Source: Saliphagus infecundisoli
GTDB taxonomy: Archaea; Halobacteriota; Halobacteria; Halobacteriales; Natrialbaceae
NCBI RefSeq assembly: GCF_020177375.1
Contig: NZ_JAIWHV010000004.1
Span: 62,001 to 126,000, forward strand
Reading direction: 5' to 3'
Length of the DNA: 64,000 nt
Position 1 is the first letter of the stretch, and each line of letters starts with the position of its first letter. Positions 1 to 14,928 of this stretch are shown here, in pieces. Position numbers and translations under genes: made by a program. The notes under the pieces are model-generated. The model was not told where the DNA came from and did not search any database. It was given only the letters and a program-made list of their open reading frames with translations.

Positions 1-732
1 CGCACCCAGCTTGCTCTCGCGGGTCTCGCGTTCGTTCCGGGTCTGCTCGCGCTCGTCCATGTCCCAGTAGGGGACGTCCGTGAGCAGGAGGTCTACCTCC
101 CGGTCGACCTCCGCGACGAGCTCGAGGCAGTCGCCGTGACGTAGCTCCTGGTCGGCCAGCGGCGGCTCCCCGCGGGCGCGACGGTCGGCGTTCTCGCGCT
201 CTAGAACTTCCCCGTAGAGCTCGATCCAGCGCTCGACGCGCTCGAACCCGATCGCCTCCCGGAGGCCGCTTCCCTCGTGTTCACAGAGGCTCGCGCCCAG
301 CAAGGTGCCCCCGACGCCGGCGAAGGGATCGAGGACGAGGTCGTCGGCTTTCGAGAACCGGCCGATCAGCTCCGCACAGAGGCGGGGCGGTTTCTGGCCG
401 CCGTGTTCGCTCCGCAGGTCGTGCTGGAGGTCCGGAGGATACCCTTCCGCGAGTACGGACTTCGTCGCGTACTTCCACTCCCGGCCGGTGAGGTCGTTGA
501 CGGCGTTGCGCTCGTCGTAGATCCCGCGGCCCTCGACGTATCGCTGGTGGTCGGCCAGGTCGTCGGTATCGACGAGTTCGCCGTCTTCGACGGGCAGGGA
601 CCGAGCGCGGGCCCGGTCTGTGTCGAAGCCGCCCTCGCTGTCGGTGACCAGGCGGCTCTGGCGGTAGCTCTCGCCGTCGTCGTCGTCACCTCCCCCCTCG
701 ATGCCGCCATCGTCGATACCCTCCTCGCTCAT
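1..732 (-). CDS. DNA methyltransferase, N4/N6 type (partial, cut by left edge)
   Basis: The gene starts at the ATG at 732-730 and runs off the window with 244 codons visible. After an acidic, Gly/Asp-rich N-terminus comes a region ending in LDPFAGVGGTLLGA (about residues 142-155), which is the S-adenosylmethionine-binding motif I, and later LLLTDVPYWDMD, a variant of the catalytic (D/N)PPY motif IV. Motif I before motif IV is the order of amino-methyltransferases that modify exocyclic amines of adenine or cytosine. Such archaeal proteins are annotated as DNA methylases; an RNA target of the related Trm-G10 type cannot be excluded because the C-terminus is missing. No restriction enzyme is visible next to it. 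Family call is firm, substrate is open. Confidence 0.75.
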   Translation of the reverse strand, partial: MSEEGIDDGGIEGGGDDDDGESYRQSRLVTDSEGGFDTDRARARSLPVEDGELVDTDDLADHQRYVEGRGIYDERNAVNDLTGREWKYATKSVLAEGYPPDLQHDLRSEHGGQKPPRLCAELIGRFSKADDLVLDPFAGVGGTLLGASLCEHEGSGLREAIGFERVERWIELYGEVLERENADRRARGEPPLADQELRHGDCLELVAEVDREVDLLLTDVPYWDMDEREQTRNERETRESKLGA

Positions 733-1284
733 GGTCGGTCTCTCGCTCCCGACGACAAAAGTGGTGCTACTAAGCGCCAGGAGTCAACTGGGGCGGTAGC
801 GCGGAGTCCCCGTCTTCAAGGTGCGACCGACGGGAGCGAGTAGGGCGGGGAGGAGCGCGTTCGTATAGCTGGGCACATACACCGAAAACGCAAGACTTAG
901 GCCGCCATAATCCGTGTTACCACATAGCCACCGACGGGCTACAGACAGCCCCGCAAGGGGTGCCCGGCCACGTTTCGGTGCGGCCAAGGACGGGTTATCT
1001 CGGCGGTGGCGGGCACCGGTCACCGTGCCCAGCGGACCGGACTGAGTGGTCACTGCAACACCTGAATATCCAGAAGGAACGTGGCGATCTAGTTCTCAGC
1101 GACGCTCGGAGGCTTGTTTAATCGGGAAATCCACTCGTGGTGAGAAGCGCTTTGAGCCGGAGCCTGTGATGCGTATTCATCCATTGCGCTAATCACTCCG
1201 TCCGGTCCGTGAAGGACGGACCGACGACGGTGAACGTGATGCCACGAGCCTCTCCGTTCCCCGCTTTGGGGATAGAACCCGAGG
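733..1284. other. Non-coding stretch with decayed mobile DNA
   Basis: There is no convincing gene here. The open frames are short, biased and show no recognisable domain. The only structure I can support is the IS-end-like hairpin at 808-850; between it and the second hairpin (1375-1417) the sequence looks like decayed insertion DNA. A structured RNA was considered for 900-1050 and not supported. Confidence 0.4.
780..850 (+). mobile_element. Remnant of an IS200/IS605 right end (TnpB C-terminus and hairpin)
   Basis: A 43-base hairpin at 808-850 has a nine-pair stem (CCCCGTCTT with AGGGCGGGG, G-U pairs allowed). The frame through it reads SPRLQGATDGSE and stops at the TAG inside GAGTAGGG. As I recall, haloarchaeal TnpB proteins commonly end in a SPTLKER...SE tail whose stop codon lies in exactly this GAGTAGGG(C/T)GGGG context, and in TnpB systems the guide (omega) RNA is read from this end. 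Only the tail survives; no upstream TnpB domain is visible. The match rests on remembered family sequence, not on a search. Confidence 0.5.
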
Positions 1285-2178
1285 TCACGTCCAATTACAT
1301 TGCCGCTGCCGGCCGACCGCACCGGCACACAAGGGCGAAGGACGCCACAAAGCCTCCAACGTCCGCCATGCAAGCCCCACCCTCAGCGAGCGTCCGAAGG
1401 ACGCGAGTAGGGTGGGGTCGGTGACTCCAAGTTTAATGTCTTCCTTTCCTTTCTCCGATTCATCTTCTTCAACTCCTTCATCCTCCTCAAATGGCGTTGC
1501 ATAAAACGTCGCGGAATGAACTCCTAGGAGAAATATGGATTTAGAACGGTTGTCTGGGACCTCTCCCCGTAACGACATCATGTTTTTTGATTCCATGACT
1601 ACCGGGCTGCCACTTGTGCCAGGATGCATACGCGCATCAGTCACGAAGAAGGGTCTATCTTCGAAGGGGTGCCCATATGGACTGGAAATTAACGCGTTCC
1701 GTCGGACAGGGAACCAAGTGGATCTATCCACAAAGTCAGCAGGGTATCCGATAACAGAAACACGTTGGTCGGGTTGTACATTCTCGTGAATGAAATGGTC
1801 AAAAGTATAGGCTAAACTTCCTGAATTTGGACTTTGGTCTTCATCCTCCAGCGCGTCCAAACTGCTGAGTTGAGGATGAAGAGGAATCGCTGCAAGATCT
1901 ATCTCAGTAGGAATTTCAGGATATTCATACCATTTTGGTTTTCCATCTTTCATTAGACGAATAGTGCTGCGGTGAGCTTGACCTGGGTTTGTGGCATCTC
2001 TAAACCATACGTACGCCTCCGTAGGATTTTCATCACCAGAATCTGGATACACAACATGACGATTTGTTATGATGAAGGTCTGTCCATTATGATTCAGGAA
2101 AAAACCAGTCCCGCCACCCTCTACCCCACGATACCTGATTGGTGTGACAGTACCAAATACAGGATCAATACCCCTCAT
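1285..2178 (-). CDS. Trypsin-like serine protease, 3' end replaced by IS remnant
   Basis: The protein has the chymotrypsin-fold triad: His in TNRHVV (about residue 41), Asp in TEIDLAA (about 94) and Ser in HPGTSGSPVV (about 191). There is no signal peptide or membrane segment, so it should be intracellular. The ATG at 2178 is preceded by GGTGAT and a TATA-like TATATTCTAATAC; a TTG nine bases upstream is the alternative start. Codon use is clearly AT-richer than the flanking chromosome, which suggests transfer. From about residue 254 the frame runs into the hairpin at 1375-1417, so the terminal 45 or so residues are probably not original. Such proteases sometimes accompany defence modules, but no partner gene is visible here. 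Confidence 0.75.
   Translation of the reverse strand: MRGIDPVFGTVTPIRYRGVEGGGTGFFLNHNGQTFIITNRHVVYPDSGDENPTEAYVWFRDATNPGQAHRSTIRLMKDGKPKWYEYPEIPTEIDLAAIPLHPQLSSLDALEDEDQSPNSGSLAYTFDHFIHENVQPDQRVSVIGYPADFVDRSTWFPVRRNALISSPYGHPFEDRPFFVTDARMHPGTSGSPVVMESKNMMSLRGEVPDNRSKSIFLLGVHSATFYATPFEEDEGVEEDESEKGKEDIKLGVTDPTLLASFGRSLRVGLAWRTLEALWRPSPLCAGAVGRQRQCNWT
1340..1417 (+). mobile_element. Second IS200/IS605 right-end remnant (omega-RNA-like hairpin)
   Basis: The hairpin at 1375-1417 has the same length (43 bases) and plan as the one at 808-850: a nine-pair stem (CCCCACCCT with AGGGTGGGG), a 25-base interior starting CA and ending GCGAGT, and here an inner stem GCGTCC/GGACGC closed by GAA. The plus frame through it reads ASPTLSERPKDAS, close to the haloarchaeal TnpB tail SPTLKER, but the usual TAG stop is out of frame, so the gene end is damaged. 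It sits on the 3' end of the serine protease gene and supplies that protein's last codons. Confidence 0.5.
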
Positions 2179-2313
2179 AATCACCAAAAAGATTTGTATT
2201 AGAATATACCTTCCCTAACCTCATAGTCATGTCAGGCCTAAACTGGAGTGAGCGATCTTGACCTGGATGTAACGCGATGCTCATACGCAGCATCCGTAGG
2301 AGCTGGTGTGCCG

Positions 2314-2649
2314 CTATACTAGAGCACGGGTCAGCATTATCCCCATCATCGGCGAGAATCCGTTGCTCTCATCGGGGCCAAGCGAGTCGAGCAGCGGACG
2401 GGCCTCCTCGAATTGGTCCCCTTTCTCGATCGTCCGATCTTCTTGATCCCACTCGATCAGTCCGTGATCGGCTAATTTGGGAAGGTGGATGTGATACAGT
2501 TCGATCTGGTGGTCCTCCCACTTCTCGGCGTCCATAATCGTCTCTGCGCCGAGTGCATCCAGCTCGATCGGCTCGGCGTGGTCAGCAACGGTCCGAAGGA
2601 CGCGCCGCCGGAGAGGGTTCGATAAGACCCTCGGAATCTTATCGGGCAT
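2314..2649 (-). CDS. DUF7344-type winged-helix protein
   Basis: This 111-residue acidic protein has the haloarchaeal DUF7344 layout: an N-terminal helix with RVLSNPLRRRVLRTV, then an acidic stretch, then the hallmark ELYHIHLPKLADHGLIEWD (about residues 50-68). The fold is a winged helix and members are presumed DNA-binding regulators; most are orphans of unknown target. No membrane segment is present, unlike the paralogue at 30642-31238. The start is the ATG at 2649. It is isolated, with non-coding repeats on its 5' side. Confidence 0.7.
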   Translation of the reverse strand: MPDKIPRVLSNPLRRRVLRTVADHAEPIELDALGAETIMDAEKWEDHQIELYHIHLPKLADHGLIEWDQEDRTIEKGDQFEEARPLLDSLGPDESNGFSPMMGIMLTRALV

Positions 2650-3020
2650 GATTTATCACTATGGACTCAGCAAGATATTAGCTCTGCTTTCACAGGCCTA
2701 TGCAGTTCTCGGCAGAACGCTCTTGTTCTGTAACGCCAGATACCGCTCATTCGTCACATCCGTCAGAGAATCACCGCCCCATGGTGGGGGATCGGGGCGG
2801 TGGGTCCGAGTTGGTGGGGGTACAGTATGCCGGCCACCCAATAGGCCGACACGCATACTTTGACACCAATGGTAATAACATTATCGCCGGACGTCGTCGA
2901 ACGAGAAGCGAGTGGTTTGAGACTCAATGTAACGCGCTATTCGTCACAAACGGTTTGCATAATTCTTGAGCCGCCGGCTTATCTCAGTGAAAGGACTATA
3001 GTAGAGCCAGGAACGTACTG
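2650..3020. other. Intergenic, with hairpin repeat
   Basis: I see no gene in these 371 bases. They hold the first copy of a repeated element (2731-2802), a shortened relative at about 2930-2947 (TGTAACGCGCTATTCGTCAC), and an ACCAATGGTAATAA stretch at about 2867 that recurs in near-identical form at about 3494. Confidence 0.45.
2731..2802. repeat. Hairpin repeat, copy 1
   Basis: This 72-base element starts TAACGCCAGATACCGCTCA and ends in an inverted repeat CACCGCCCC (2772-2780) / GGGGCGGTG (2794-2802). A second copy lies at 3200-3261. Copy 1 carries about ten extra bases (ATTCGTCACATC region) in the middle. The loop GGTGGGGGATC is nearly the same in both. It may be a miniature mobile element or a duplicated terminator. 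Confidence 0.6.
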
Positions 3021-3191
3021 ATGTCCATGGCCGTGATCTTTGGCTGTCCTGACTGTGGACGCGGTTACTCTCGGAGCCAACAGCTGGTCTCGACAGACAA
3101 GTACGGGAGTACTCTATACCAATGCCCGAACTGCTACAACCCAGTGGCTCGGACGCGACAGGGAGACAACGACGTTCTCGTTTCAGCCTGA
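3021..3191 (+). CDS. Small zinc-ribbon protein (56 aa)
   Basis: A short frame encodes a 56-residue protein with CPDC (about residues 9-12) and CPNC (about 35-38), two CxxC knuckles 22 residues apart, the normal spacing for a zinc ribbon. The first is followed by GRGYSRSQQ. Regular codon use, a clean ATG (a second ATG two codons on is possible) and the paired cysteines favour a real gene. Many haloarchaeal micro-proteins of this type exist and mostly lack known function. The stop codon touches the second copy of the hairpin repeat, which may act as its terminator. Confidence 0.65.
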   Translation: MSMAVIFGCPDCGRGYSRSQQLVSTDKYGSTLYQCPNCYNPVARTRQGDNDVLVSA

Positions 3192-3199
3192 CCTGGATC

Positions 3200-3263
3200 T
3201 AACCCCAGATACCGCTCACCTGTCTGAAAATCACCGCCCAGGGTGGGGGATCGGGGCGGTGAT
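3200..3263. repeat. Hairpin repeat, copy 2
   Basis: Second copy of the element at 2731-2802, with the stem ATCACCGCCC (3230-3239) / GGGCGGTGAT (3254-3263). The eight bases just before it (ACCTGGAT) also precede a TAACGCG stretch at about 2262, hinting at a third, shorter relative. It lies directly behind the zinc-ribbon gene. Confidence 0.6.
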
Positions 3264-3816
3264 CTCGTGTAGTCGGCCCAAACATGGTGATGGTTCCCCG
3301 GACCGACAACCAAAGATCGTTGCTATACACAAAAAGGCACATCGAACCCGGCACTACCGCCCGGATAGATTGGACGCAGTCGAGTTCAAGGGGAGAAGAC
3401 GCCGCCCCCGAGTGGCTTATTCTGGGGGCGGCTGTGCGACGCGAGTGTGCAACAGTGGCGCCGACCCACGGCGAGGTCGACACCTAAACTATCGTTACCA
3501 ACGGTAATAAAGCTACGTCAGACAACTGTTGGACGAAGCTCGTAGGTTCTGGTCATGTGAGTCGCGGAAAGGGGGAAGAGTGAATGCCGCTCCCTGGATC
3601 AGAAACAGGGATGGCGGCAGGGTCATACCAGATCAGTGGTGGGAACGGTGGTGGTGTGTCGACCAACGGTGGGGTCGACAAATGAAAGACAGTCACTGAT
3701 TGTAATAAAAGCAGAGCGAGGAGTTGCCGGGAGGCCTTTTAGGGGCTAATCCCGGCCGACGTTCTGACAGATAGCGGCTGCAACCGCTGTCTTCAATCCG
3801 ACCGACGACTACAGCC
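3264..3816. other. Intergenic, no gene seen
   Basis: No frame here looks coding. There is a perfect eight-base inverted repeat TGTCGACC (3657-3664) / GGTCGACA (3673-3680) and two GGTAATAA-type stretches (about 3503 and 3699). An AGCGG/CCGCT inverted repeat sits at about 3773-3788, ahead of the next gene. Confidence 0.4.
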
Positions 3817-4509
3817 ATGAGTATCTTCGATACCCTCCGACCGGGCGCACAGATCGACGATCAACTCGAGACGCTTCGCAAGGATACGGATACGCTTCGC
3901 GAGGACGTCGACGGCCTCCAGGCCGCCCTCGATCGCGGTCCCGTCGAGCCTTCCGGGCCCACGGTCAACCTCTCGCAGGAGGAGTGTGACGACCTGGGCC
4001 AGTGGATTATCGACCACCCGAACACCCATCCGATCCTCGAGTCCGGGGGCGAGTACCCGATCAAGACCGAACCCCGGCTGACGGACCCCGACCAAGAGCA
4101 TCACGAGCTCGTCGTCCAGGGCAACGGTGCGGAGATCGTCGTCGCCGACGAGAGTGTCGGGTCGTTCGGCTGGTTCGGGCGTACGGCCGGCGGTGCCTTC
4201 TCGACGCTTTCGCTCCAGGACCTCATCCTCGTCGTCGATCCCGACCAGGGCTACGACGCGGGCTGGGGGCGCTTCTGGATCGACGAGCGCGTCGAGAACA
4301 CGAACCTCTCGATCGCGGGGGCCCGCCGCCGACCGGGCCCTGAGCGGCGTCACACCTCTTCTTTGGATCGAGTCCGATATCAAGGCGAATATCCAAGCAC
4401 AGGACTAAACGATCTGGGGCAGTGTATTCCGTTCCATGAGTCAGCCAGAGTACGACCGACGGACGTTCTTCGCGTGCGAGTTCTGCGACCTCGTGTACGC
4501 AGGGCTTGA
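3817..4509 (+). pseudogene. Truncated beta-helix/pectate-lyase-like gene
   Basis: The first 168 residues look genuine. A short coiled coil (LETLRKDTDTLREDVDGL, about residues 17-34) is followed by the opening of a right-handed beta-helix domain: a segment on finding a prescribed place and value, then HHELVVQGNGAEIVVADES and LSLQDLILVVDPDQG. It resembles the start of the surface beta-helix protein at 40017-41468 but has no Tat signal. At 4323 the frame enters a direct repeat whose second copy is at 4651-4671, and from there the frame is arginine-rich and overlaps another gene, so residues 169-230 are unlikely to be real. The remaining helix coils are missing. A pseudogene, or a gene cut by insertion. 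Confidence 0.6.
4323..4343. repeat. Direct repeat flanking 4344-4650, left copy
   Basis: 21 bases with core GACCGGGCCCT; 19 of 21 match the right copy at 4651-4671. The pair brackets the 49-residue zinc protein and marks the point where the beta-helix reading frame is lost. Confidence 0.6.
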
Positions 4510-4585
4510 GAAACCGGATGAATGTCGCGTCTGTGATGGGGAGATGTTCATCGAGGTCATCCCCGAAGACGATCCCCATCCATAG
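4436..4585 (+). CDS. Rubredoxin-like zinc protein (49 aa)
   Basis: This short frame encodes 49 residues with two CxxC knuckles, ACEFCDLVY (about residues 14-17) and CRVCDGEM (about 30-33), the pattern of a rubredoxin or zinc-ribbon fold. The C-terminus is acidic (EVIPEDDPHP). The ATG at 4436 is the only reasonable start. The gene lies between two copies of a 21-base direct repeat (4323-4343, 4651-4671) that interrupt a beta-helix gene, so it may have arrived with the insertion. Function unknown; metal binding is inferred from the cysteines. Confidence 0.6.
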   Translation: MSQPEYDRRTFFACEFCDLVYAGLEKPDECRVCDGEMFIEVIPEDDPHP

Positions 4586-4650
4586 AATCCAGTGACGGGG
4601 CTGGATCAGCATCCAATCCCGATCGCGTTCTCGACCGTAGGAAACGGAGT

Positions 4651-4671
4651 CCGCCGCTGACCGGGCCCTCA
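4651..4671. repeat. Direct repeat flanking 4344-4650, right copy
   Basis: Right copy of the 21-base repeat at 4323-4343, two mismatches. The sequence after it differs from that after the left copy, so this is not a simple tandem duplication. Confidence 0.6.
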
Positions 4672-4710
4672 ACGCCTGCGTTCTCCATCAGCACCTGAAC
4701 CGGCGCGAAA

Positions 4711-5040
4711 TCAGGAATGCTCGTAGATGGCTAGCTCGTCCCCATCGATTTCGAGCTGATAGGACTCGACGGCGAACGAAATAGTGAGGTTCTCGGTGCG
4801 GGCCATGATGTTCTCGAGCGCTGTTGGATCGATATAATCGTATAACGGGCCGCCAAGTTCGGTCGGCAACTCGGACGGGGACGTGTGCTCTACCTCGGCA
4901 AGCGAGTCAACAATCCCTGGGATAGGGTCGGATCGGGACAAGTGGGCTCGGTAAAGCTGTGTCCTGGTGTCCTTCACAGTCTGCCTATAGTTCCCAAACC
5001 TCAAGTATCTTTCACTCCATAAGTTATAAAATATTACCAA
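4711..5040 (-). CDS. HalOD1 output-domain protein
   Basis: 109 residues matching the HalOD1 output domain: GIVDSLAEVEHTSPSELP, then PLYDYIDPTALENIM (about residues 65-80), then a terminal strand pair ending VESYQLEIDGDELAIYEHS. In haloarchaea this domain occurs alone or as the output of response regulators; its mechanism is not known. The first 30 or so residues are less typical, so the true start could be further in. It is divergent from the DUF7344 gene at 5154, and the shared 110-base gap is AT-rich and should hold both promoters. Confidence 0.65.
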   Translation of the reverse strand: MVIFYNLWSERYLRFGNYRQTVKDTRTQLYRAHLSRSDPIPGIVDSLAEVEHTSPSELPTELGGPLYDYIDPTALENIMARTENLTISFAVESYQLEIDGDELAIYEHS

Positions 5041-5153
5041 TAACTGTCAGATTTGTACTACCCATTCCGATTTTCTGGTGTCGACAGTGGACAAGACGGG
5101 TCGGGATTTATCACGTTTTAACACAAATATAGACTTACCAGGTGGGTGTTAAC

Positions 5154-5552
5154 ATGGTGAACAGAAGATATGACAATGCAGTTCGCGTGATTGAAACCTG
5201 GGACCGTATTTATGAGGCGTTATCGGCCGACCCCCGTCGCCAACTGCTCCACTCGTTAATGGACGTTGACCCCGGTGAATCGGTCCCGCTTCCCGAAAGT
5301 GCTGCTAATCCAAGCGCACCTCCAGACGCTGAGCACCTTCGGATGGAGCTCAAGCACGTCCATCTCCCCAAATTAGCTGATCGGGAGTTTGCCGTCTGGG
5401 ACGAGGGTCCACTTCGGGCGTCGCGCGGCCCCAGGTTCGAAGAGGTCGAAGCGGTGTTTGATGCGCTATTTTCATCCACGAACGACTTTCCAGACAGTAT
5501 CGTGGTTGGGTGTCACCACCTCGAAGAAGAGCGGGAGTTGGACGACGAGTAG
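5154..5552 (+). CDS. DUF7344-like winged-helix protein
   Basis: 132 residues with the family signature IYEALSADPRRQLLHSLMD near the N-terminus and LKHVHLPKLADREFAVWDE in the middle, followed by a short C-terminal region. The ATG at 5154 is preceded by GGTGGG, a plausible ribosome-binding site; an in-frame GTG at 5142 is the alternative. The protein is soluble and acidic. It is the second DUF7344 member in this island (see 2314-2649) and faces the HalOD1 gene divergently. A presumed transcription regulator without known target. Confidence 0.7.
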   Translation: MVNRRYDNAVRVIETWDRIYEALSADPRRQLLHSLMDVDPGESVPLPESAANPSAPPDAEHLRMELKHVHLPKLADREFAVWDEGPLRASRGPRFEEVEAVFDALFSSTNDFPDSIVVGCHHLEEERELDDE

Positions 5553-5585
5553 CATGGGCCTGAGCGGGCTCCCTTTTTCCTCTCG

Positions 5586-5632
5586 CCTTGTGCAACATCG
5601 TCGTCGTCTCGAAAGGCGCGTGTTGCACAAGG
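5586..5632. mobile_element. IS-like inverted repeat
   Basis: A perfect 12-base inverted repeat, CCTTGTGCAACA (5586-5597) and TGTTGCACAAGG (5621-5632), is separated by 23 bases. The plus frame leaving the right arm reads RVLHKVSAALSLADLGKERPESMPIHAVLRF and stops at 5718, which resembles the start of a transposase. On the minus strand of the following 95 bases a frame ends PAVKHAIDAIADPQNES. Both look like remains of neighbouring genes broken by an insertion. I cannot name the IS family. Confidence 0.4.
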
Positions 5633-5817
5633 TTTCAGCAGCGCTGTCGCTCGCTGATTTGGGGAAGGAGAGGCCCGAATCCATGCCTATTCACGCTGTT
5701 CTACGGTTTCGGGACTAGGATTCATTTTGTGGGTCGGCGATGGCGTCGATCGCGTGCTTGACTGCGGGTGTTGGTGCCCGCGACCAATCAGGCCCTGAGA
5801 GTTGTCGCAGATTTTAT

Positions 5818-7446
5818 TTACTGTAGAGATTCGCACGGGATGCCATCACCATCTGCATCAAGCCCATGCGGGTCGCCATCCTCGCGCTCGAGAACGTATT
5901 TCGCCTGTTCGTACGTGTCGAAGTCGCCACAGTTGTAATCACCATCATCTGGCAGCGGGGGTAGTTCCACCTCCCCACTACCACCATTGCCGGATTCGGG
6001 TGTTTCCGTCGGCGTTGGCGTCGGTGTCGGCGTTGGTGTTGCAGTCGGCGTTGCTTCAGCTTCGAAGTCCCAGAGCCCGACGCCGTTCTGACGTGCGTTC
6101 TCCTCGGCGTTGTCAAAATCACTCCGAAGACTGAACGTCGAATCATACACACGGGCATAGCCGCCCTCGAGCAGTGCGAGGTTGAAGTTCGTCTCGCCAG
6201 TGTAGATGTACGCGAGCAGGCGTCCGAAACTCCCTCGGCGATCACTGTCGCCGTCAGTGACAACCCGCACCTCCTGTCCTTCGAGCTCGTTGGTCGCATA
6301 CTGGCTTGCTTCTTGGCCCCAGTTATAGAGGTGATCGCGGGATCCCTGCGTATCCGGGAACCCCTCGTACTCTCCAGGGCTGACGTCACTGAGTGTCGTC
6401 TCGGGTGTGTCGACGCCGATCAGTCGAACCGTATCCGTTTCACCGTCAGCGAACTGGACCTCGACGGTGTCGCCATCGATCACCCGGGTGACGGTGGCTT
6501 CTCGGGCTTCCCCGCCCGACACCTCCGCCGGGACTGCGACGGATGGTTCGGATGGTGTTGCCGTTTCGGTCTCCGTTTCAGTGGGAGTCTCCGTTTCCGT
6601 CTCCTCTTCAGTTTGTGTCTCCGTTTCAGTCGCCGTGGATTCTTCCGTTGCAGTCTCGGTTTCGTCTTCCTCAGTTTCAGACTCGGTTTCGGGATCAGTA
6701 TCGTCCCCAGACTCGGTTCCGTCGTCTGCTCCCGCCTGGGATTCAGATTCGGTCGCAGTCTCCTCCTCTTCGATTTGAGGGAGTCGAAGCGTGAGCTCAT
6801 CGTCGCTATCAATACTGATGCTCGCGTCTTCGGATTCGTAGCCGTCGGCACTCACCTCGATATCGTGTGTCCCTTCCTCAACAGAGAACGTCACCTGCCC
6901 ATCTGCATCGGTTGGGAGGTCCTCAACCGTGCGGAAGATAATTGCGTCGTCGTGTGTAAGTTCGACGTCTGCATCCTGTATTGGCTCGTCTGACTGATTG
7001 AGGACGGTCACAGTCAAATTATAGGATCCGTCGTCGGAGTCACTCTCTCCACCGTTAGCCGCGGATTCCCCGTTACTGTTGTTGCCTGTTTCGTTGTCGG
7101 CTGCTGTGTCGTTGCCAGCATCCTCGAGCTCGCCGCTGGCTTGGGTCGGCTCCGATTCGTTGCCCGTGTCATCCGTACTGCCACCAGCCCCGAGCATTAC
7201 TCCCCAGATGACAAGCCCGATTACACCAGCCACAGCACCTGTTTTGAGCCCTCCTCCCTGCTCGATGCCAGGGATCGCCGCGAGCCGATCAGCAGACCCT
7301 CGGTAGTTCGTCCCGACGACCGCTCCCACGACAATCGGGAGGAGAGCGATAACAAACATCGCCGCGAAGAGATACGCCACCACCAGAATCCCGTTCCGCG
7401 CTGTTGCCCCCGGTTTCATCCCCGGCACCTTCTCTGCGAAAGACAT
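5818..7446 (-). CDS. Membrane-anchored thermonuclease with PEGA-like and excalibur domains
   Basis: 542 residues in a clear domain string. Two membrane segments come first (about 15-45 and 75-95). An acidic linker and a PEGA/carboxypeptidase-regulatory-like beta domain (about 145-225: [24 protein letters not shown]) follow, then a long Thr/Glu stalk (about 230-300). The staphylococcal-nuclease domain spans about 315-465 ([34 protein letters not shown]), with the active-site Arg/Glu/Arg region present. A Pro/Thr-rich spacer leads to a C-terminal excalibur calcium-binding motif ([10 protein letters not shown]). It should cut extracellular DNA at the cell surface, for nutrient use or against incoming DNA. 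The start at 7446 is chosen over 45 bases upstream because it lies just before the conserved hydrophobic region. Confidence 0.85.
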
Positions 7447-7562
7447 AACCTGGTAGTACACTTTCCTGTATATTACTGTTCCGGAAAACATGAATATCCT
7501 ATGCGTTGGAAGAATATTTTGACACGATCTGCTCAGATGATGCCTGCCGGAACTCTCACCAC

Positions 7563-7595
7563 TCTTTATATATGCCGTTCATCCTATTGCGACGT
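7563..7595 (+). promoter_or_regulatory. Leaderless promoter of the orc1 fragment
   Basis: TTTATATA at 7565-7572 lies about 27 bases upstream of the ATG at 7596, the spacing of a haloarchaeal TATA box with transcription starting at or next to the start codon. It supports 7596 over longer upstream starts. Confidence 0.6.
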
Positions 7596-8360
7596 ATGAT
7601 AACCGGTCCCATCGTCTTCGACGAGGATCATCTTCCCCGGCAACTTCGCCACCGGGATGCCGAGGCCGATCATCTCTCCCGGACGCTTCAACCCGCCGTC
7701 GACGGTGCCCGCACCGAGGACGTCCTTCTCACGGGTCCCTCTGGTGTCGGGAAGACCGTGCTCTCGCGGGTCGCCGTCGTCGCCGACGGGTCCGTTGGCC
7801 GTCGGGACGGCATCGTCCTCCTCGCGGGGCTTCTCGCGTACCTCGGCTGGTTGGTCGCCGCCGGCCGGACGCCGGCGGAACTCCCGGAGCTCCCCGCAGG
7901 CGGTGACGCCGGGACCGACCCGCTCGATCTCGCCCGGCTGATCGCCGGGATCGCCCTCGTCGTCGCCGGCGGGCACCTCCTGGTCGGGACCGCCGTCGGC
8001 CTCGCGCGTGCGGCCGGGCTCTCGGAGTGGGCCATCGGCGTCACCGTCGTCGCTGCGGGCACGTCGGTCCCCGAACTCGCGACCTCGGTCGTCGCCGCCC
8101 GTCGGGGCGAGGTCGCGATCGCCGCGGGCAACGTCGTCGGCTCGAACGTCTTCAACCTCCCCGGGGTCCTGGGGGTCGCTGCCGCGATCCATCCCCTCTC
8201 CGTGGCGGCCGACCTCCGTCCCGGGCTGGCAGCACTCGTCGTCCTGACCGCCGTCGCGACCGCCCTGCTCGCGACCGGGCGGCGGCTCACCCGTCCCGAG
8301 GGCGGGGCGCTCGTCCTCGTCGCCGTCGCCTACTGGCTCTTCGACGCTCTCTACGGGTAA
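7596..8360 (+). CDS. Chimera: Orc1/Cdc6 N-terminus fused to Na+/Ca2+ antiporter C-terminal half
   Basis: Residues 1-58 match an archaeal Orc1/Cdc6 initiator: VFDEDHLPRQLRHRDAEADHLS, then the Walker A loop GPSGVGKT (47-54). The AAA+ sequence stops there. Residues from about 59 (ADGSVGRRDGIVLLAG) to 254 match the second half of a CaCA-family cation antiporter, with membrane helices and one alpha repeat, GTSVPELATS (about 155-164) and GNVVGSNVFN (178-187). The reading frame stays open across the junction near base 7768. Walker B, sensor and winged-helix parts of Orc1 and the first antiporter repeat are absent, so neither original activity is expected. This may be a deletion product still expressed from the orc1 promoter; an assembly join is the other explanation. 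Confidence 0.7.
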   Translation: MITGPIVFDEDHLPRQLRHRDAEADHLSRTLQPAVDGARTEDVLLTGPSGVGKTVLSRVAVVADGSVGRRDGIVLLAGLLAYLGWLVAAGRTPAELPELPAGGDAGTDPLDLARLIAGIALVVAGGHLLVGTAVGLARAAGLSEWAIGVTVVAAGTSVPELATSVVAARRGEVAIAAGNVVGSNVFNLPGVLGVAAAIHPLSVAADLRPGLAALVVLTAVATALLATGRRLTRPEGGALVLVAVAYWLFDALYG

Positions 8361-8397
8361 GCGCCACCGGGTGACGCCGTCGTTACCGGGAGGTCTT

Positions 8398-9423
8398 ATG
8401 GCTCAAGCCCCGAGGGAAGCTATGAACATGCTCGTCGATGGCGAGTGGCGGACCGACGCCCACGAGACGACCGACGACGACGGCTCGTTCCAGCGCGGGG
8501 AGACCACCTTCCGCGACAAGATCCGGGACGAGCCCGACGCACGATTCCAGGCCGAGGCTGGGCGCTACCACCTCTACGTCTCCTACGCCTGCCCGTGGGC
8601 CCACCGGACCCTGATCGCCCGCCGGCTGCTCGGTCTCGAGGACGCGATCTCGGTCTCCGTCGTCGATCCCTTCCGGGCCGACGACGGCTGGCAGTTTTCC
8701 CCCGAGAAGGAGGGCTGTACCGAGGACCCGATCCACGGCGCCGACTACCTTCGGGAACTCTACGTCCGGGCCGACCCCGACGCGACCTGCCGGGTGACGG
8801 TACCCGTGCTGTGGGACCGGAAGGAGGACACCATCGTCAACAACGAATCCGAGGAGGTGCTCCGGATGCTCGACACCGAGTTCGGCGACGTCGCCGAGCA
8901 GGACGTCGATCTCTACCCCGAGGGCAACCGCGAGGACGTAGACGAGATCATCGAGGCGATCTACGACCCGATCAACAACGGCGTCTACCGCGCGGGCTTT
9001 GCAACCGAACAGGAACCGTACGACGAGGCGATCGACGACCTCTTTTCGGCCCTGGATCGCTGGGATTCGGTCCTCGAGAATCAGCGTTACCTCGCGGGCG
9101 ACCGCCTCACCGAGGCGGACGTCTGCATGTTCACGACCCTGGTGCGGTTCGACCAGGTGTATCACACGCACTTCATGTGTAACGTCAACCAGATTCGGGA
9201 CTACGACACCCTCTGGCCGTACCTCCGGGATCTGTACCAGACCCCGGGTATCGCCGAAACCGTGAACATGGACCACATCAAGGAACACTACTACACGACC
9301 CACCCCGACATCACTCCCAACCGGATCGTCGCGCGGGGTCCGGACCTCGAGTTCGAGGCGCCCCACGGCCGCGACGAACTCGCGGGCGGGCCGCCGTCGG
9401 CGCTGGCTCCGGCGGACGACTGA
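8398..9423 (+). CDS. Glutathione S-transferase family, glutathionyl-hydroquinone reductase type
   Basis: 341 residues. SYACPWAHRTL (about residues 61-71) is the catalytic Cys motif of Xi-class GSTs, the glutathionyl-hydroquinone reductases. The C-terminal helical domain carries YLAGDRLTEADVCMFTTLVRFDQVY, and the FRDKIRDEP and DPIHGADYLRELY segments are typical of the class. These enzymes reduce glutathionyl-quinones; haloarchaea use gamma-glutamylcysteine in place of glutathione, so the natural thiol probably differs. GGGAGGT four bases before the ATG at 8398 fixes the start, although MNML 24 bases on would also fit. Confidence 0.85.
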   Translation: MAQAPREAMNMLVDGEWRTDAHETTDDDGSFQRGETTFRDKIRDEPDARFQAEAGRYHLYVSYACPWAHRTLIARRLLGLEDAISVSVVDPFRADDGWQFSPEKEGCTEDPIHGADYLRELYVRADPDATCRVTVPVLWDRKEDTIVNNESEEVLRMLDTEFGDVAEQDVDLYPEGNREDVDEIIEAIYDPINNGVYRAGFATEQEPYDEAIDDLFSALDRWDSVLENQRYLAGDRLTEADVCMFTTLVRFDQVYHTHFMCNVNQIRDYDTLWPYLRDLYQTPGIAETVNMDHIKEHYYTTHPDITPNRIVARGPDLEFEAPHGRDELAGGPPSALAPADD

Positions 9424-9444
9424 ACTCCCTTTCCCGACTGCGTC

Positions 9445-10212
9445 TCAGCCGTCGAGTACCGCCGCCGCGTCGTCCTCGGGGTGGTAGCCGAGTTCGAGGG
9501 TCGTCTCCGTCAGCGAGAGGAATCGCCCCTCGTTGGCCGAGACGGCGTGGGCGGTGACGGGGTTCGACTCGAGGGTCGCGGTCGCCGCGGCGTTGATCGC
9601 GGCCCGGCAGTCGGCGGGACTGAGCCACATCGCGCGGGCGTAGCGTCCGCCGGGATCGTCGCTCTCCTCGACTCTGTCGGCCAACTCCTCGGGAGTGAGC
9701 AGCCAGCCGATCCGCAGGGAGACGACCTCGAGGCCGTGGTGGGCGGCGTAGTAGCTGCCCATCGCCTCCCCCGCGACCTTCGTGACGCCGTAGTAGGTGT
9801 CGGGAGCGGTCGGGTCGTCGGGCCGGACCGCTTTCGGGCGCTGCTCGGTGGACTCCGACCGGTCGGGCGAGGCGACGTTTTCCATGTTGACCGCGTGGTT
9901 CGAGGAGGCGAAGACGACCCGGTCGAGACCGTTCTCGCGGGCGGCCTCGAAGGCGTTGTAAACTCCCTCGACGTTCGGGCCCGCGAGCTCGTCCCACTCA
10001 GCGTCGGGCGAGGGGTTGGCCGCGAGATGGACGAGGACGTCGGCGTCCGAGAGCGCATCGGCGAACGCCTCCCGGTCTTCGATCTCCAACAGGGCGCTCT
10101 CCAGGTCGTCGGTCTCGCTGTGGGTGAAGAGGGCGAGGTCGTGGTCGGGAAACGCCTCGATCGCCTCCCGGCCGACGGAGCCGGCCGCGCCAGTGATCGC
10201 GATTCGGGTCAC
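9445..10212 (-). CDS. NAD-dependent epimerase/dehydratase family oxidoreductase
   Basis: 255 residues, extended short-chain dehydrogenase. The N-terminal nucleotide-binding loop is ITGAAGSVG, and the catalytic pair is in TYYGVTKVAGE (Tyr-x-x-x-Lys). Overall it resembles uronate dehydrogenases and the haloarchaeal NAD-dependent glucose-6-phosphate dehydrogenase Azf; sequence alone does not separate these. It acts in the cytoplasm on a sugar or sugar acid. It stands alone, convergent with the GST-like gene. Confidence 0.75.
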   Translation of the reverse strand: MTRIAITGAAGSVGREAIEAFPDHDLALFTHSETDDLESALLEIEDREAFADALSDADVLVHLAANPSPDAEWDELAGPNVEGVYNAFEAARENGLDRVVFASSNHAVNMENVASPDRSESTEQRPKAVRPDDPTAPDTYYGVTKVAGEAMGSYYAAHHGLEVVSLRIGWLLTPEELADRVEESDDPGGRYARAMWLSPADCRAAINAAATATLESNPVTAHAVSANEGRFLSLTETTLELGYHPEDDAAAVLDG

Positions 10213-10266
10213 GGCCGAACTGGGACGGCCGCGCGGAAAGGAATCGTGCGCGCGAGCGACGGCTCG

Positions 10267-11526
10267 CTACTCGGGGTTCGGTCGCGGGAGAGAACGGTGG
10301 CTCCGCGGGGGAACGAGGTAGTTCGCCCGCCGCTGAACGTCGACGTACTGGAGGATGCCGTTGTTGTTCCGGATGCCCGTCGCCGAGTCGAGGTCGGTCC
10401 CGTTCATCGCCGCGCGGGTGTCGACGAAGTCGGCGATCGACCGCTGGAGCGAGAGGAAGTGGGTCGCGGCCTCCCCGCCGTCGCTCGAGGAGAAGTCCCG
10501 CCGGAGAAGGAGTGGTTCGTCGCCCTCGCGGACCCGGTGGACCTTCTGGGCGTGGCCGACGACGCCCTCGCTGGCGGACTCCTCGGCCGACGGACAGTCC
10601 TCGATCCCCGTCGAGTCCCCCAGGTTCTGGCCGGCGCCCTCGACGCGGCCCTCCTCGGCGTGGGCCGGACAGAACATCTTGCTCACCCGCTGGTCGCGGC
10701 TATCCTGGAGGTACCACTGCCTGAGATTGAGGTCGATCTTCGAGAGGTGCTCGGTCGTCCCGCCGGCGAACGGTCCGTCCTCGATCGTCACCCGATCCTC
10801 GCTCGCCTGGTTGTGCGTGAAGCCGGACTTGAACCCCATCCACAGCGGCGCGTCGTCGTCGATCGGCTCCTGGTTGGCGATTTCGGCGATCTCGTCCTGG
10901 TGGTCGGCGGGGAGGCCCTCGCCGTTGAACCCCGACCGGCGCCCGACGACCTCGAGGACCCCCGAGAGGTCCTCCTCGACTGCGATGCCGTTCAGGTCGT
11001 CGAGTTCGCCCGTCAGGGCCTCCTCGACTCCCATCAGGGCGTGGCCGTGGTTGCTCGCGAGGTGGAGGAGGGCGTCGCTGTCGTCGAGCGCGGGGTCCTC
11101 GAAGGGGGCCAGCCGCTCGGGGGCGGGGAGGTCGACCGACTCGGGGAGCGCGTCGTCGAACCGCCCGAAGTACGACGGGGAGTAACCGAGCGTGAAGCCG
11201 ATCCCGCCCTCGCCGCGCTCGTAGGCCCGTTCGACCGTTCGGAGGGCGCTCTCGACGACCTCGCGGTCGCCCTCTATGTCGTCGCCGACGTACTCGAGGT
11301 CCAGCAGGACGTTGTGTTCGAGGCCGACGTCGTTGCCGTGTTCGTCGGTCGGGAGGTACTCGTTCCAGGCATGCTGGCGCTCGGGGAGGGCGTCGGGGTC
11401 GGTCGAGGCCTGGGGGAGGTCCTCGCTGGCGCGGTCGAGACACGCCGCGAGCGCGCTCGCGCCGCCGATGGCGACGGCGCTTCGCACGAACGCACGCCGG
11501 GAGATCCCGGGGGACCGTGCGGGCAT
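10267..11526 (-). CDS. Tat lipoprotein related to DyP-type peroxidases (DUF7405)
   Basis: 419 residues. The start at 11526 gives MPARSPGISRRAFVRSAV, a twin-arginine signal, ending in ALAAC, so the mature protein is probably a lipoprotein on the outer face. The body has DyP-like features: GIGFTLGYSPSYFGRF, LLHLASNHGHALMG, and a C-terminal block with LLLRRDFSSSDGG followed by THFLSLQRSIADFV. The usual GxxDG distal motif is not obvious (GRRSGFNGEGL stands in its place), so heme-peroxidase activity is uncertain. I recall this haloarchaeal group as DUF7405. It is divergent from the SRPBCC gene. Confidence 0.7.
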   Translation of the reverse strand: MPARSPGISRRAFVRSAVAIGGASALAACLDRASEDLPQASTDPDALPERQHAWNEYLPTDEHGNDVGLEHNVLLDLEYVGDDIEGDREVVESALRTVERAYERGEGGIGFTLGYSPSYFGRFDDALPESVDLPAPERLAPFEDPALDDSDALLHLASNHGHALMGVEEALTGELDDLNGIAVEEDLSGVLEVVGRRSGFNGEGLPADHQDEIAEIANQEPIDDDAPLWMGFKSGFTHNQASEDRVTIEDGPFAGGTTEHLSKIDLNLRQWYLQDSRDQRVSKMFCPAHAEEGRVEGAGQNLGDSTGIEDCPSAEESASEGVVGHAQKVHRVREGDEPLLLRRDFSSSDGGEAATHFLSLQRSIADFVDTRAAMNGTDLDSATGIRNNNGILQYVDVQRRANYLVPPRSHRSLPRPNPE

Positions 11527-11611
11527 GGACGGTGGTCGGGCCCGAGCGCTAAAGGGGGTTGTGGTCGGGGCGACCGGCAGGGCGAAGGGGCCAGGGGTGG
11601 GAGAGATACAC

Positions 11612-12067
11612 ATGAAACGGATCGAGCGCTTCCGGGAGATCGCAGCCCCGCCAGAAACCGTCTGGGAGATGCTCCTCGAGTTCGAGGCCTACCCGGAGTG
11701 GAACCCGTTCGTCACCGAGATCGAGGGTCGGCCGGTCGAGGGCGAGGAGCTCCGGGTGCGGATCGAGCCGCCGGACTCGCGGTCGATGACGTTCTCCCCG
11801 ACGGTGGTCGCGGTCGATCCCGGCGAGCGCTTCGCGTGGCGGGGCCGGCTTCTCGTCCCCTTCGTGTTCGACGGTTTTCACGAATTTCACATCGAGCCGA
11901 TCGAGGGCGGAGACGGCGAGGCCGACCGGACGCGCTTTCTCCAGCGCGAGACGTTTCGCGGGGTACTGGTCCCCTTCGTCCTCGACAAGGACAGCGTCGG
12001 CGCCGGCTTCGAGGCGATGAATCGTGCGCTCGCCGAGCGCGCCGAGGCCCGCGCCGCCACCGTCTGA
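11612..12067 (+). CDS. SRPBCC (START-like) domain protein
   Basis: 151 residues forming a single SRPBCC hydrophobic-cavity domain. IAAPPETVWEMLLEFEAYPEWNPFV at the N-terminus is the classic polyketide-cyclase/dehydrase signature, followed by a TFSPTVVAVDPGERFAWRG strand pair and a C-terminal helix after a TxRGVLVPF segment. Members bind small lipophilic ligands; the ligand here is unknown. GGGTGGGAGAG upstream of the ATG at 11612 supports the start. Confidence 0.8.
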   Translation: MKRIERFREIAAPPETVWEMLLEFEAYPEWNPFVTEIEGRPVEGEELRVRIEPPDSRSMTFSPTVVAVDPGERFAWRGRLLVPFVFDGFHEFHIEPIEGGDGEADRTRFLQRETFRGVLVPFVLDKDSVGAGFEAMNRALAERAEARAATV

Positions 12068-12091
12068 AGGGGCTCCCGTCCGACGCCCGGG

Positions 12092-12743
12092 CTACCGGGA
12101 GAGAAGCGACGGGATCGCCTCGAGCGAGTCGATCTCGTGGGTCGGTGCCGGGAGAGGGCATACCCCTCGCGGTGGGGCCGGCGGACGAACGCCGAGTCGA
12201 TTCCGCAGGCCGCCGCGGCCTCGATATCCACCCGGCTGTCGCCGACGTACAGCGGGTTCTCCGCCCCCAGGTCCCCGATCGCCCGCTCGACGTAGTGGGG
12301 CCGGGCTTCTTTCGCTCGATCCCCTCGATGGTCGACTCGCGGCCGTACCAGGGCGAAAACTCCTCGAGGCCGAAGTGATCGACGATCGTCCCGATCGTCT
12401 CGTGTTGGTTGTTGCTCACGATCGCGCGGGGGACCGACAGCCCCTCCAGGGCGGCAACGTCGTCGTAGAGGGTCTTCCGACCGGCCCGGATCGCCTCGGC
12501 CTGGACGTCGATCGCGGCCCGCTCGCGGGCCGCCCAGAGGGCGGTCGGATCGACGCCGCGGGCGTCGGCGACTCCCTCCAGGCCCTCGACCTTCGGTGCG
12601 AGCAGGGTCTCGACGTCCTCGGCGGTCGCGTCCGCGACACCGACCTCCGCGAAGGCGTCCTCAATCGCCCGCCGGATCGCCCCGTGGTCGGTCGGCGTCG
12701 TCAGTACGCCGTCGTTGTCGAAGACGACTGCGTCGTATCGCAT
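12092..12743 (-). pseudogene. HAD-family hydrolase with two apparent frameshifts
   Basis: The protein begins MRYDAVVFDNDGVL, the DxDG nucleophile motif of HAD phosphatases, and continues with IVSNNQHETIG (motif II). After RKKPGP near base 12300 the homology moves to another frame (HYVERAIGDLGAENPLYVGDSRVDIEAAAACG, with the GDS motif), and near base 12151 to a third (THEIDSLEAIPSLLSR, stop at 12094-12092). Each shift is repaired by adding one C in a short C run on the coding strand. Repaired, it is a full-length HAD of about 217 residues, likely a phosphoglycolate-phosphatase-like enzyme. Two homopolymer slips in one gene suggest read errors as much as true decay. Confidence 0.7.
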
Positions 12744-12821
12744 CGGAGTTCGGATACTCGCCCCACGGAGTTGACCGTTTCGACCCGGGGTTCAAATGCG
12801 ATGAGGGGGCCAGCGTTCCCG

Positions 12822-13127
12822 ATGGGCCACAGGGCACTGGTCGCCGTCGCGCGCGGGGACGACCGGTACGACCTCCGGGAGAGCCGGTGGGGCGGCGAGG
12901 ACCTCGCGCTTCCCGATCCCGGGACGACCGATTCCCTCGCGGCGGACGTTCCCGGCGAGCGGGTCCTCCCCGACCACGCGGATCCCTGGCGCTACGAGGC
13001 GCTGTTCGTCGTCCGCTCGGCAGTCACGGGCTATCGCGTCCGTCTGCTCGGCTGGTGCGTTCGGCCCCCGATTCGGGGCGCGGTCGTCGCCGTAGACCCT
13101 GCGGCCGACTGCGAGTTCCGGACCTGA
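12822..13127 (+). CDS. DUF6735 family protein
   Basis: 101 residues. MGHRALVAVARGDDRYDLRESRWGG at the N-terminus is the typical opening of this haloarchaeal family, which has no assigned role. The ATG at 12822 is chosen for that match; an in-frame ATG 21 bases earlier is possible. The C-terminus has a short beta-rich stretch (GYRVRLLGWCVRPP). Divergent from the HAD gene; the 78-base gap should contain both promoters. Confidence 0.65.
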   Translation: MGHRALVAVARGDDRYDLRESRWGGEDLALPDPGTTDSLAADVPGERVLPDHADPWRYEALFVVRSAVTGYRVRLLGWCVRPPIRGAVVAVDPAADCEFRT

Positions 13128-13370
13128 TTCCGGGCGACGAAATCGGTCCTCGGCGATTGTGTCGATGCAGGTTTGCTCGACGAACGCGTGGCCCAGTCGT
13201 ACCTCGAAGGACGGCTCCGTGTGGCGTACCCCGCTAGGGGCTATACGTTCGGGTAGGGTCGTTCAACCGTTACGGTGTATGTCCATCGTGGTCCGATGGG
13301 TCGGGATCCGCAGTTCCGGTTGGATTCGCAAACCCCAATTATTATGAAATGACGGCTGTAACACGATTGT

Positions 13371-13574
13371 ATGTTGAATGGTTTTCGGGACTACTTTACG
13401 TACGACCCGAGTAGCCGGGCAGCGGCAATCAGTTTGATGGGGTCGTCGTTCGTACTGTTTCTCTTCCTCACCAGTCCCGATTTCGAAAACCAATACTATC
13501 TCTTCGGGGTGGTCACGATGGTCTTCGCGATCCTCTCGTCCGTAGTTATCCTGGCTTTTGACCAAAGGTCGTAG
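13371..13574 (+). CDS. Small two-helix membrane protein
   Basis: 67 residues with two membrane helices, ISLMGSSFVLFLFLT (about 20-34) and YLFGVVTMVFAILSSVVILAF (about 43-63), joined by a short polar loop. An AATTATTATGAAATG stretch about 30 bases upstream of the ATG could be the TATA box. No family recognised. Isolated gene. Confidence 0.55.
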   Translation: MLNGFRDYFTYDPSSRAAAISLMGSSFVLFLFLTSPDFENQYYLFGVVTMVFAILSSVVILAFDQRS

Positions 13575-13773
13575 TTGTGAGAGCCATGTCGCGTACATGC
13601 CGTGTAGTTACAGGCGCCCGATTCGTCCACCGAGGGGCGCCGATACAGTCTCGGTCGCTTCCGGCGAGACTCGCTTGCCGGGCGTCGCCACAGATACGAC
13701 CGGCCGTCTGTCCCGACCGGAGACGACGCGTCAGAAGATACACTTAATGTGATCGGTCACTCACATCCGAGTA

Positions 13774-14928
13774 ATGCGACGACAGACGCATGCAGACGGT
13801 GGGTCCGACGGGGGGAACGTGGATTCGATCGACCGGCGAACGGTGCTCGCCACGGGCGGGACGGTCATCGCGGGCGGGATGCTCGCGGGCTGTCTCGGCG
13901 GCGACGGCGGCAACGGCAACGGAAACGACAGCGGGAACGGCAACGGAAACGGGAACGGCGGCGGTGGCGCCGACGAGATGGCGATCATCTCGAGTCCCGC
14001 TGGGTTCGACGACAACGCGTTCAACGACAACGCCCTTGACGGACTCGAGCAGGCCGCCGACGAGTTCGACTTCGCGGTCAACACGATCGAGGAGACCGAG
14101 GAGGCCCAGTACGAGTCAGTCCAGGCCGACGCCGCCGACCAGGGCTACGACCTCATCGTCTGTGTGAGCGACAACCACACGGACGCGCTGACGACGAACG
14201 CCGAGGACTACCCCGATCAGAACTGGATGCTGATCAATAACGTCGTCGACACCGGGAACGTCTCGGGATGGATCGAGATGAACAACGAGATGTCGTTTCT
14301 CGCGGGGGTCGTCGCCGGCGTGATGACCGGCGAGGAGTTCGAGACCGACGCGGCCGCGACCGATCCCGAGAGCGCGACCGTCGGTTTCGTCGGCGGCGAG
14401 GAAAACGACCTGATCCAGGCGTTCGAGCAGTCCTACGTCGAGGGCGCCGAGTGGGTCAACGAGGACGTCGAGGTGCTGACCGGCTACGGCGGCAGCTTCA
14501 ACGACCCGAGCGGCGTCGAGGACGTCGCTTCCTCCCAGATCGACGACGGGGCCGATATCGTCTGGCACGCCGCTTCGGCGGCGGGCGCGGGCGCGTTCTC
14601 GGCCGCCCAGAACAACGGCCGGTTCGGGATCGGCGTCGACGTCGACCAGTCGGTGACCGAAGAGCAGTACGCCGACATCATCATCGGGTCGGCGGTCAAG
14701 GCCTTAGACGAGGCGACCTATCAGGTCGCCCAGTCGGTCGTCGAGGGGACGTTCGACGAGATGGTCGGCGAGCAGAACCTGAGCCTCGAAAACGAGGGGA
14801 TCGACTTCGTCATCGGCCAGGAGTTCGAGGACGAACTCCCCGACCGGGTCCAAGAGGAGATCGACAACGCCAAACAGGGCTTTGCCGACGGCGAGATCGA
14901 GCTGAGCTGTGGCCCGACGAGTTGCTGA
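13774..14928 (+). CDS. BMP-family ABC substrate-binding lipoprotein
   Basis: 384 residues. A twin-arginine motif (DRRTVLATGG, residues 20-29) and lipobox LAGC (37-40) mark a Tat-exported lipoprotein, followed by a Gly/Asn linker. The mature part is a BMP/PnrA-type periplasmic-binding fold: SPAGFDDNAFNDNALDGLEQA, YDLIVCVSDNHTDAL, GFVGGEENDLIQAFEQSYVEGA, and GADIVWHAASAAGAGAF. BMP proteins bind nucleosides. It heads an operon with the ATPase and two permeases that follow, so it captures the substrate for that importer. Confidence 0.9.
   Translation: MRRQTHADGGSDGGNVDSIDRRTVLATGGTVIAGGMLAGCLGGDGGNGNGNDSGNGNGNGNGGGGADEMAIISSPAGFDDNAFNDNALDGLEQAADEFDFAVNTIEETEEAQYESVQADAADQGYDLIVCVSDNHTDALTTNAEDYPDQNWMLINNVVDTGNVSGWIEMNNEMSFLAGVVAGVMTGEEFETDAAATDPESATVGFVGGEENDLIQAFEQSYVEGAEWVNEDVEVLTGYGGSFNDPSGVEDVASSQIDDGADIVWHAASAAGAGAFSAAQNNGRFGIGVDVDQSVTEEQYADIIIGSAVKALDEATYQVAQSVVEGTFDEMVGEQNLSLENEGIDFVIGQEFEDELPDRVQEEIDNAKQGFADGEIELSCGPTSC

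Follow-up and report, generated by a model that had tools for sequence, protein, structure and literature searches.

How did an open reading frame (ORF) come to begin as a replication initiator and to end as an ion transporter? In the window, the 64,000-nucleotide stretch of Saliphagus infecundisoli DNA analyzed here, the plus-strand ORF at 7596 to 8360 is a single uninterrupted frame whose translation yields 254 amino acids, with residues 1 to 58 of a virus-type Orc1/Cdc6 protein joined in frame to about 195 C-terminal residues of a Na+/Ca2+ antiporter. A first-pass annotation, made from the sequence alone, had proposed such a fusion with a join near base 7768, and both the translation and the profile matches described below confirm it. 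The same annotation took both partners to be halves, which does not hold for Orc1, as only 58 of its about 352 residues are retained. We consider it very probable that this ORF, a chimera, is what remains at the right-hand edge of a ~7 kb genomic island, and that it is a recent relic.

Judged by sequence similarity, the head of the fusion is of the Orc1/Cdc6 initiator type carried by haloviruses and plasmids. Fusion residues 7 to 59 match positions 7 to 59 of TIGR02928 (Orc1/Cdc6) at 39 bits, with the curated whole-protein cut-offs of this profile and of the antiporter profile TIGR00367 both missed, as expected for partial proteins. The head also matches positions 1 to 60 of phrog_7998, and it shares 57% identity across 58 residues with the Orc1 annotated in the haloviruses Harhisp1 and ChaoS9 (PMC6471424) and 59% across 61 residues with a virus contig (L087); the 110 plasmid records that match it all do so at less than 60% identity. 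The likeness to halovirus Orc1-type replication proteins (ChaoS9 orc1, Harhisp1 rep and BJ1, 54–57% identity) covers the start position and the first 58 to 59 residues, the start codon of the fusion lying at the same position as the annotated orc1 starts of ChaoS9 and Harhisp1. It extends upstream of the latter two genes, with a CCGGAA box and, after it, a TATA-like box found 5′ of orc1 in the window and in all four virus sequences compared (ChaoS9, Harhisp1, L087 and L088). The initiator promoter, the start, and the Walker A loop that had been read from the letters are all borne out by these comparisons, the last as GPSGVGKT at residues 47 to 54, and the promoter probably still yields a leaderless transcript. 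Whereas halovirus Orc1 proteins comprise about 350 residues, the fusion keeps nothing past Walker A: the TIGR02928 match stops at position 59 of 366, and Walker B, the sensors, and the C-terminal winged helix are absent. Lacking all of this, the Orc1 head is too short for an ATPase.

The remainder of the protein corresponds to the C-terminal portion of a calcium/sodium antiporter. Fusion residues 60 to 242 match positions 118 to 308 of TIGR00367 (E = 1.8e-29), PF01699 covers residues 113 to 249 (E = 9.1e-27), and the alignment with the solved NCX_Mj begins at residue 117 of that protein. Six membrane helices, TM5 to TM10, are predicted from hydropathy and a low-confidence AlphaFold model, one more than the "last five helices" of the original reading. 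The second alpha repeat of a CaCA antiporter, which that reading had also recognized, is present in the PF01699 region with its motifs GTSVPE and GNVVGSN intact; we take GTSxPE and GNxxGSN to be the motifs of the CaCA second alpha repeat. The fusion thus has the TM5–TM10 portion of CaCA antiporters (TIGR00367; NCX_Mj, MJ0091), but where those proteins have their own first alpha repeat and TM1–TM4, both absent here, it bears a foreign 58-residue head. In NCX structures, the ion site is built from both alpha repeats. Neither a stop nor a frameshift interrupts the antiporter part.

The switch from Orc1 to antiporter occurs between R58 and V61 of the fusion. An AlphaFold model of the whole fusion has a mean pLDDT of 53.6, with values below 50 in the Orc1 head. 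Because orientation and frame will agree by chance in one of six joins, the in-frame meeting of the two parts is unremarkable; on the same strand, the other two frames of the antiporter part run into stops at codons 55 and 43. By eye, TCGCG can be found close to the break in either type of partner, and since the partner copies are one base out of register, we do not claim microhomology at the junction. Table 1 lists the features of the locus.

Table 1. Features at the island boundary and its flanks (window coordinates; a dot denotes no strand).
Feature	Position	Strand	Remark
Divergent methyltransferase-like gene, conserved upstream neighbour	1..732	-	Runs left of the window; name read from motifs
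Island left end: 487-bp repeat element into which a 155-bp repeat element is set (1044-1198)	784..1426	.	
Lower-GC stretch of the island, holding in turn a cut trypsin-like gene, small DUF7344 and HalOD1 genes, a thermonuclease gene and, last, orc1	1427..7595	.	
Promoter of virus-type orc1, with a CCGGAA box and the TATA-like TTTATATA	7535..7595	+	~25-30 bp 5′ of the start codon
Virus-type Orc1/Cdc6 5′ part, residues 1-58, to Walker A (GPSGVGKT)	7596..7769	+	
Junction interval between the coding parts	7767..7778	+	Orc1 similarity to residues 58-59, antiporter from 60-61
CaCA (NCX_Mj-like) Na+/Ca2+ antiporter 3′ part: TM5-TM10, second alpha repeat, stop codon	7773..8360	+	
GST-like gene, conserved 3′ neighbour of intact antiporter genes	8422..9423	+	Name presumed

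We compared the antiporter locus in ten relatives, two of which (L033 and L075) are probably one genome, leaving nine distinct relatives. All nine have a complete antiporter gene, front half included, at this locus and a GST-like gene 66 to 130 bp downstream of it. A divergent methyltransferase-like gene starts at most about 200 bp upstream of the antiporter in seven of the nine, and in the other two (L070 and L075) 2 to 2.7 kb of other DNA separates the pair. The window has kept both neighbours, and where the first 40% of the antiporter gene should be, it has ~7 kb of lower-GC DNA (about 784 to 7769; GC of 0.47–0.64 at 1001 to 7500 versus 0.65–0.73 at 7501 to 13000). Because both core neighbours are kept and a mobile-element-rich segment of ~7 kb replaces the antiporter front, we place the right-hand end of a genomic island at this ORF, the antiporter gene having been destroyed by the island. 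The conservation of neighbours on both sides makes it likely that a mobile-element region of ~7 kb was inserted and DNA lost. The deletion suggested earlier comes close to this, insofar as the antiporter front and the rest of orc1 are gone. In one relative genus, an Orc1 of the chromosomal type adjoins the TrkA-like gene that lies upstream of this locus (L070 15261–16502 and L071 5620–6861), and a similar chromosomal-type Orc1 is found on contig C7 of the window's genome.

The repeat at the left end of the island has a full copy on contig C75 at 99% and copies without the interruption on C22 and C76, and the 155-bp element is found at about ten further places in the genome. Where this element sits in the 487-bp element, there is an overlap of about 3 bp. 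The trypsin-like peptidase gene (phrog_7688, 1285–2187) appears truncated, its 3′ end entering the repeat element. Further in, imperfect direct repeats (2742–2802 and 3202–3261) lie about 460 bp apart, 2981–3185 has an 83% copy on C7, and the overlapping frames at 3817–4672 resemble a broken gene, the frame at 3817–4506 having no family match. In the thermonuclease (5818–7491), the N-terminal part is hydrophobic and is accompanied by a carboxypeptidase-regulatory-like domain and a tail that is Excalibur-like; genes related to it occur on haloarchaeal plasmids. This gene has a 69% match on a Halalkalicoccus plasmid. A search of 125 family genomes revealed no close relative of the island DNA, the best match being to the thermonuclease part (69%, in G002). 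No integrase was detected among the nine island ORFs scanned, no clean flanking duplication was found around 784 to 7770, and no known RNA element was found at 1 to 14000. No tRNA was found near the island, and tRNA-targeted integration was rejected on that ground.

We propose that an element with a virus- or plasmid-type orc1 entered the spot between the methyltransferase-like and calcium antiporter genes. A deletion or rearrangement, in a region also struck by small transposable repeats, would then have taken the rest of orc1 together with the first ~40% of the antiporter gene, and the cut ends of the two genes would have met in frame by chance; we infer this order of events at the boundary. 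Translated, the frame would give a membrane protein of 254 residues with one of the two alpha repeats of the ion site gone and a head too short for an ATPase, presumably devoid of useful function, although as a recent relic the fusion may still be transcribed. Chimeric or truncated ORFs are known from the borders of genomic islands and of integrated elements, and the present locus likewise has a boundary inside a host gene, mobile repeats, and cut edge genes. It differs from the typical island-edge ORF in that the two cut frames are in register, which leaves a single long frame open and a promoter in front of it.

Could the fusion instead be an artefact of assembly? The first-pass annotation had raised the possibility that two contigs were joined, and a join of unrelated contigs at about base 7770 has in its favor that the assembly is a 76-contig draft with an estimated contamination of 4.5% and that the island begins on the left with a repeat present in multiple copies, a setting in which misjoins can occur. 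However, the outer flanks on both sides are the genes that adjoin the antiporter in relatives. In addition, no other own-genome match overlapping 4517 to 7790 was seen among the 40 of 241 first-look candidates that were scored, and the junction lies outside repeats in DNA that is unique in the genome. The antiporter front half, expected as the leftover of a misjoin, was not found elsewhere in the assembly. A random contig join at the fusion junction is unlikely, because the expected core neighbours are present on both flanks and no repeat covers the junction.

The search for the missing halves elsewhere in the genome, which had been suggested as a check on the fusion, recovered neither one in the 76-contig draft, in which missing pieces could sit in gaps. 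The three own-genome matches to the intact antiporter include no orphan front half, and the 15 own-genome Orc1 matches include no orphan back part. Three late-starting Orc1 matches, for which an early partner or Walker A was not evident at first sight, proved to be full-length or unrelated. The matches on C4 and C74 have a Walker A motif upstream, the late match on C22 shares its frame with an early one, and the match on C67 is short, confined to the Walker region, and lies in a frame that we read as ParA-like. A reciprocal exchange, with the antiporter front and the orc1 back joined elsewhere in the genome, was rejected since no such orphan pieces were found in the draft. A very lenient search for a remnant of the antiporter front half to the island's left gave, among the matches listed, nothing above chance level.

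A second alternative is that the ORF encodes a functional half-size antiporter, expressed from the virus promoter and acting, for example, by pairing with itself in a homodimer or by regulating the full-length paralogues. The frame is open, the promoter was carried along, both motifs of the second alpha repeat are intact, and the antiporter part is conserved as in intact relatives: 3 of 57 strongly conserved positions differ, as against 0 to 9 of 57 to 59 in 26 intact relatives (a count made without three more distant paralogues, L013 to L015). From these sequence comparisons the antiporter part may be recent, mildly relaxed, or kept, and the data fit a recent relic and also retention under selection. 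Against a working half-antiporter stand the missing first alpha repeat, a proline at residue 189 that none of the 26 relatives has at this position, and an Orc1 head that stops right after Walker A. Among the matches listed from 125 family genomes, 123 of which gave matches at E ≤ 1e-12, only the window's own ORF spans both parts, its genus being represented by this genome alone. A scan of the GTDB genome collection returned seven loci, each with just one of the two parts, and in a literature search, we recognized neither a single-repeat exchanger nor a comparable archaeal chimera. Loss of the antiporter would have been easily tolerated because the host genome also has two full-length paralogues. 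We regard a functional half-antiporter as quite improbable, and we find no evidence that the chimeric membrane protein envisaged earlier, with its ATP-loop head, is a working one.

That the orc1 part derives by local deletion from the chromosomal Orc1 near the locus in one relative genus (G016 and G080, where the TrkA-like gene upstream of the locus has a full Orc1 next to it, encoded on the strand of the antiporter) is hardly credible, given that this Orc1 shares 36.5% identity with the fusion head versus 57% for haloviruses, that the head carries a virus-type promoter, and that the genes between the chromosomal Orc1 position and the locus are retained in the window.

As an island-edge relic, the fusion is ordinary, and synteny accounts for it; the case shows how an odd-looking fusion forms at the edge of an archaeal genomic island. 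If the protein is produced and retained, it would represent a natural chimera of very recent origin between a virus initiator and a transporter, and would test whether a single alpha repeat can work.
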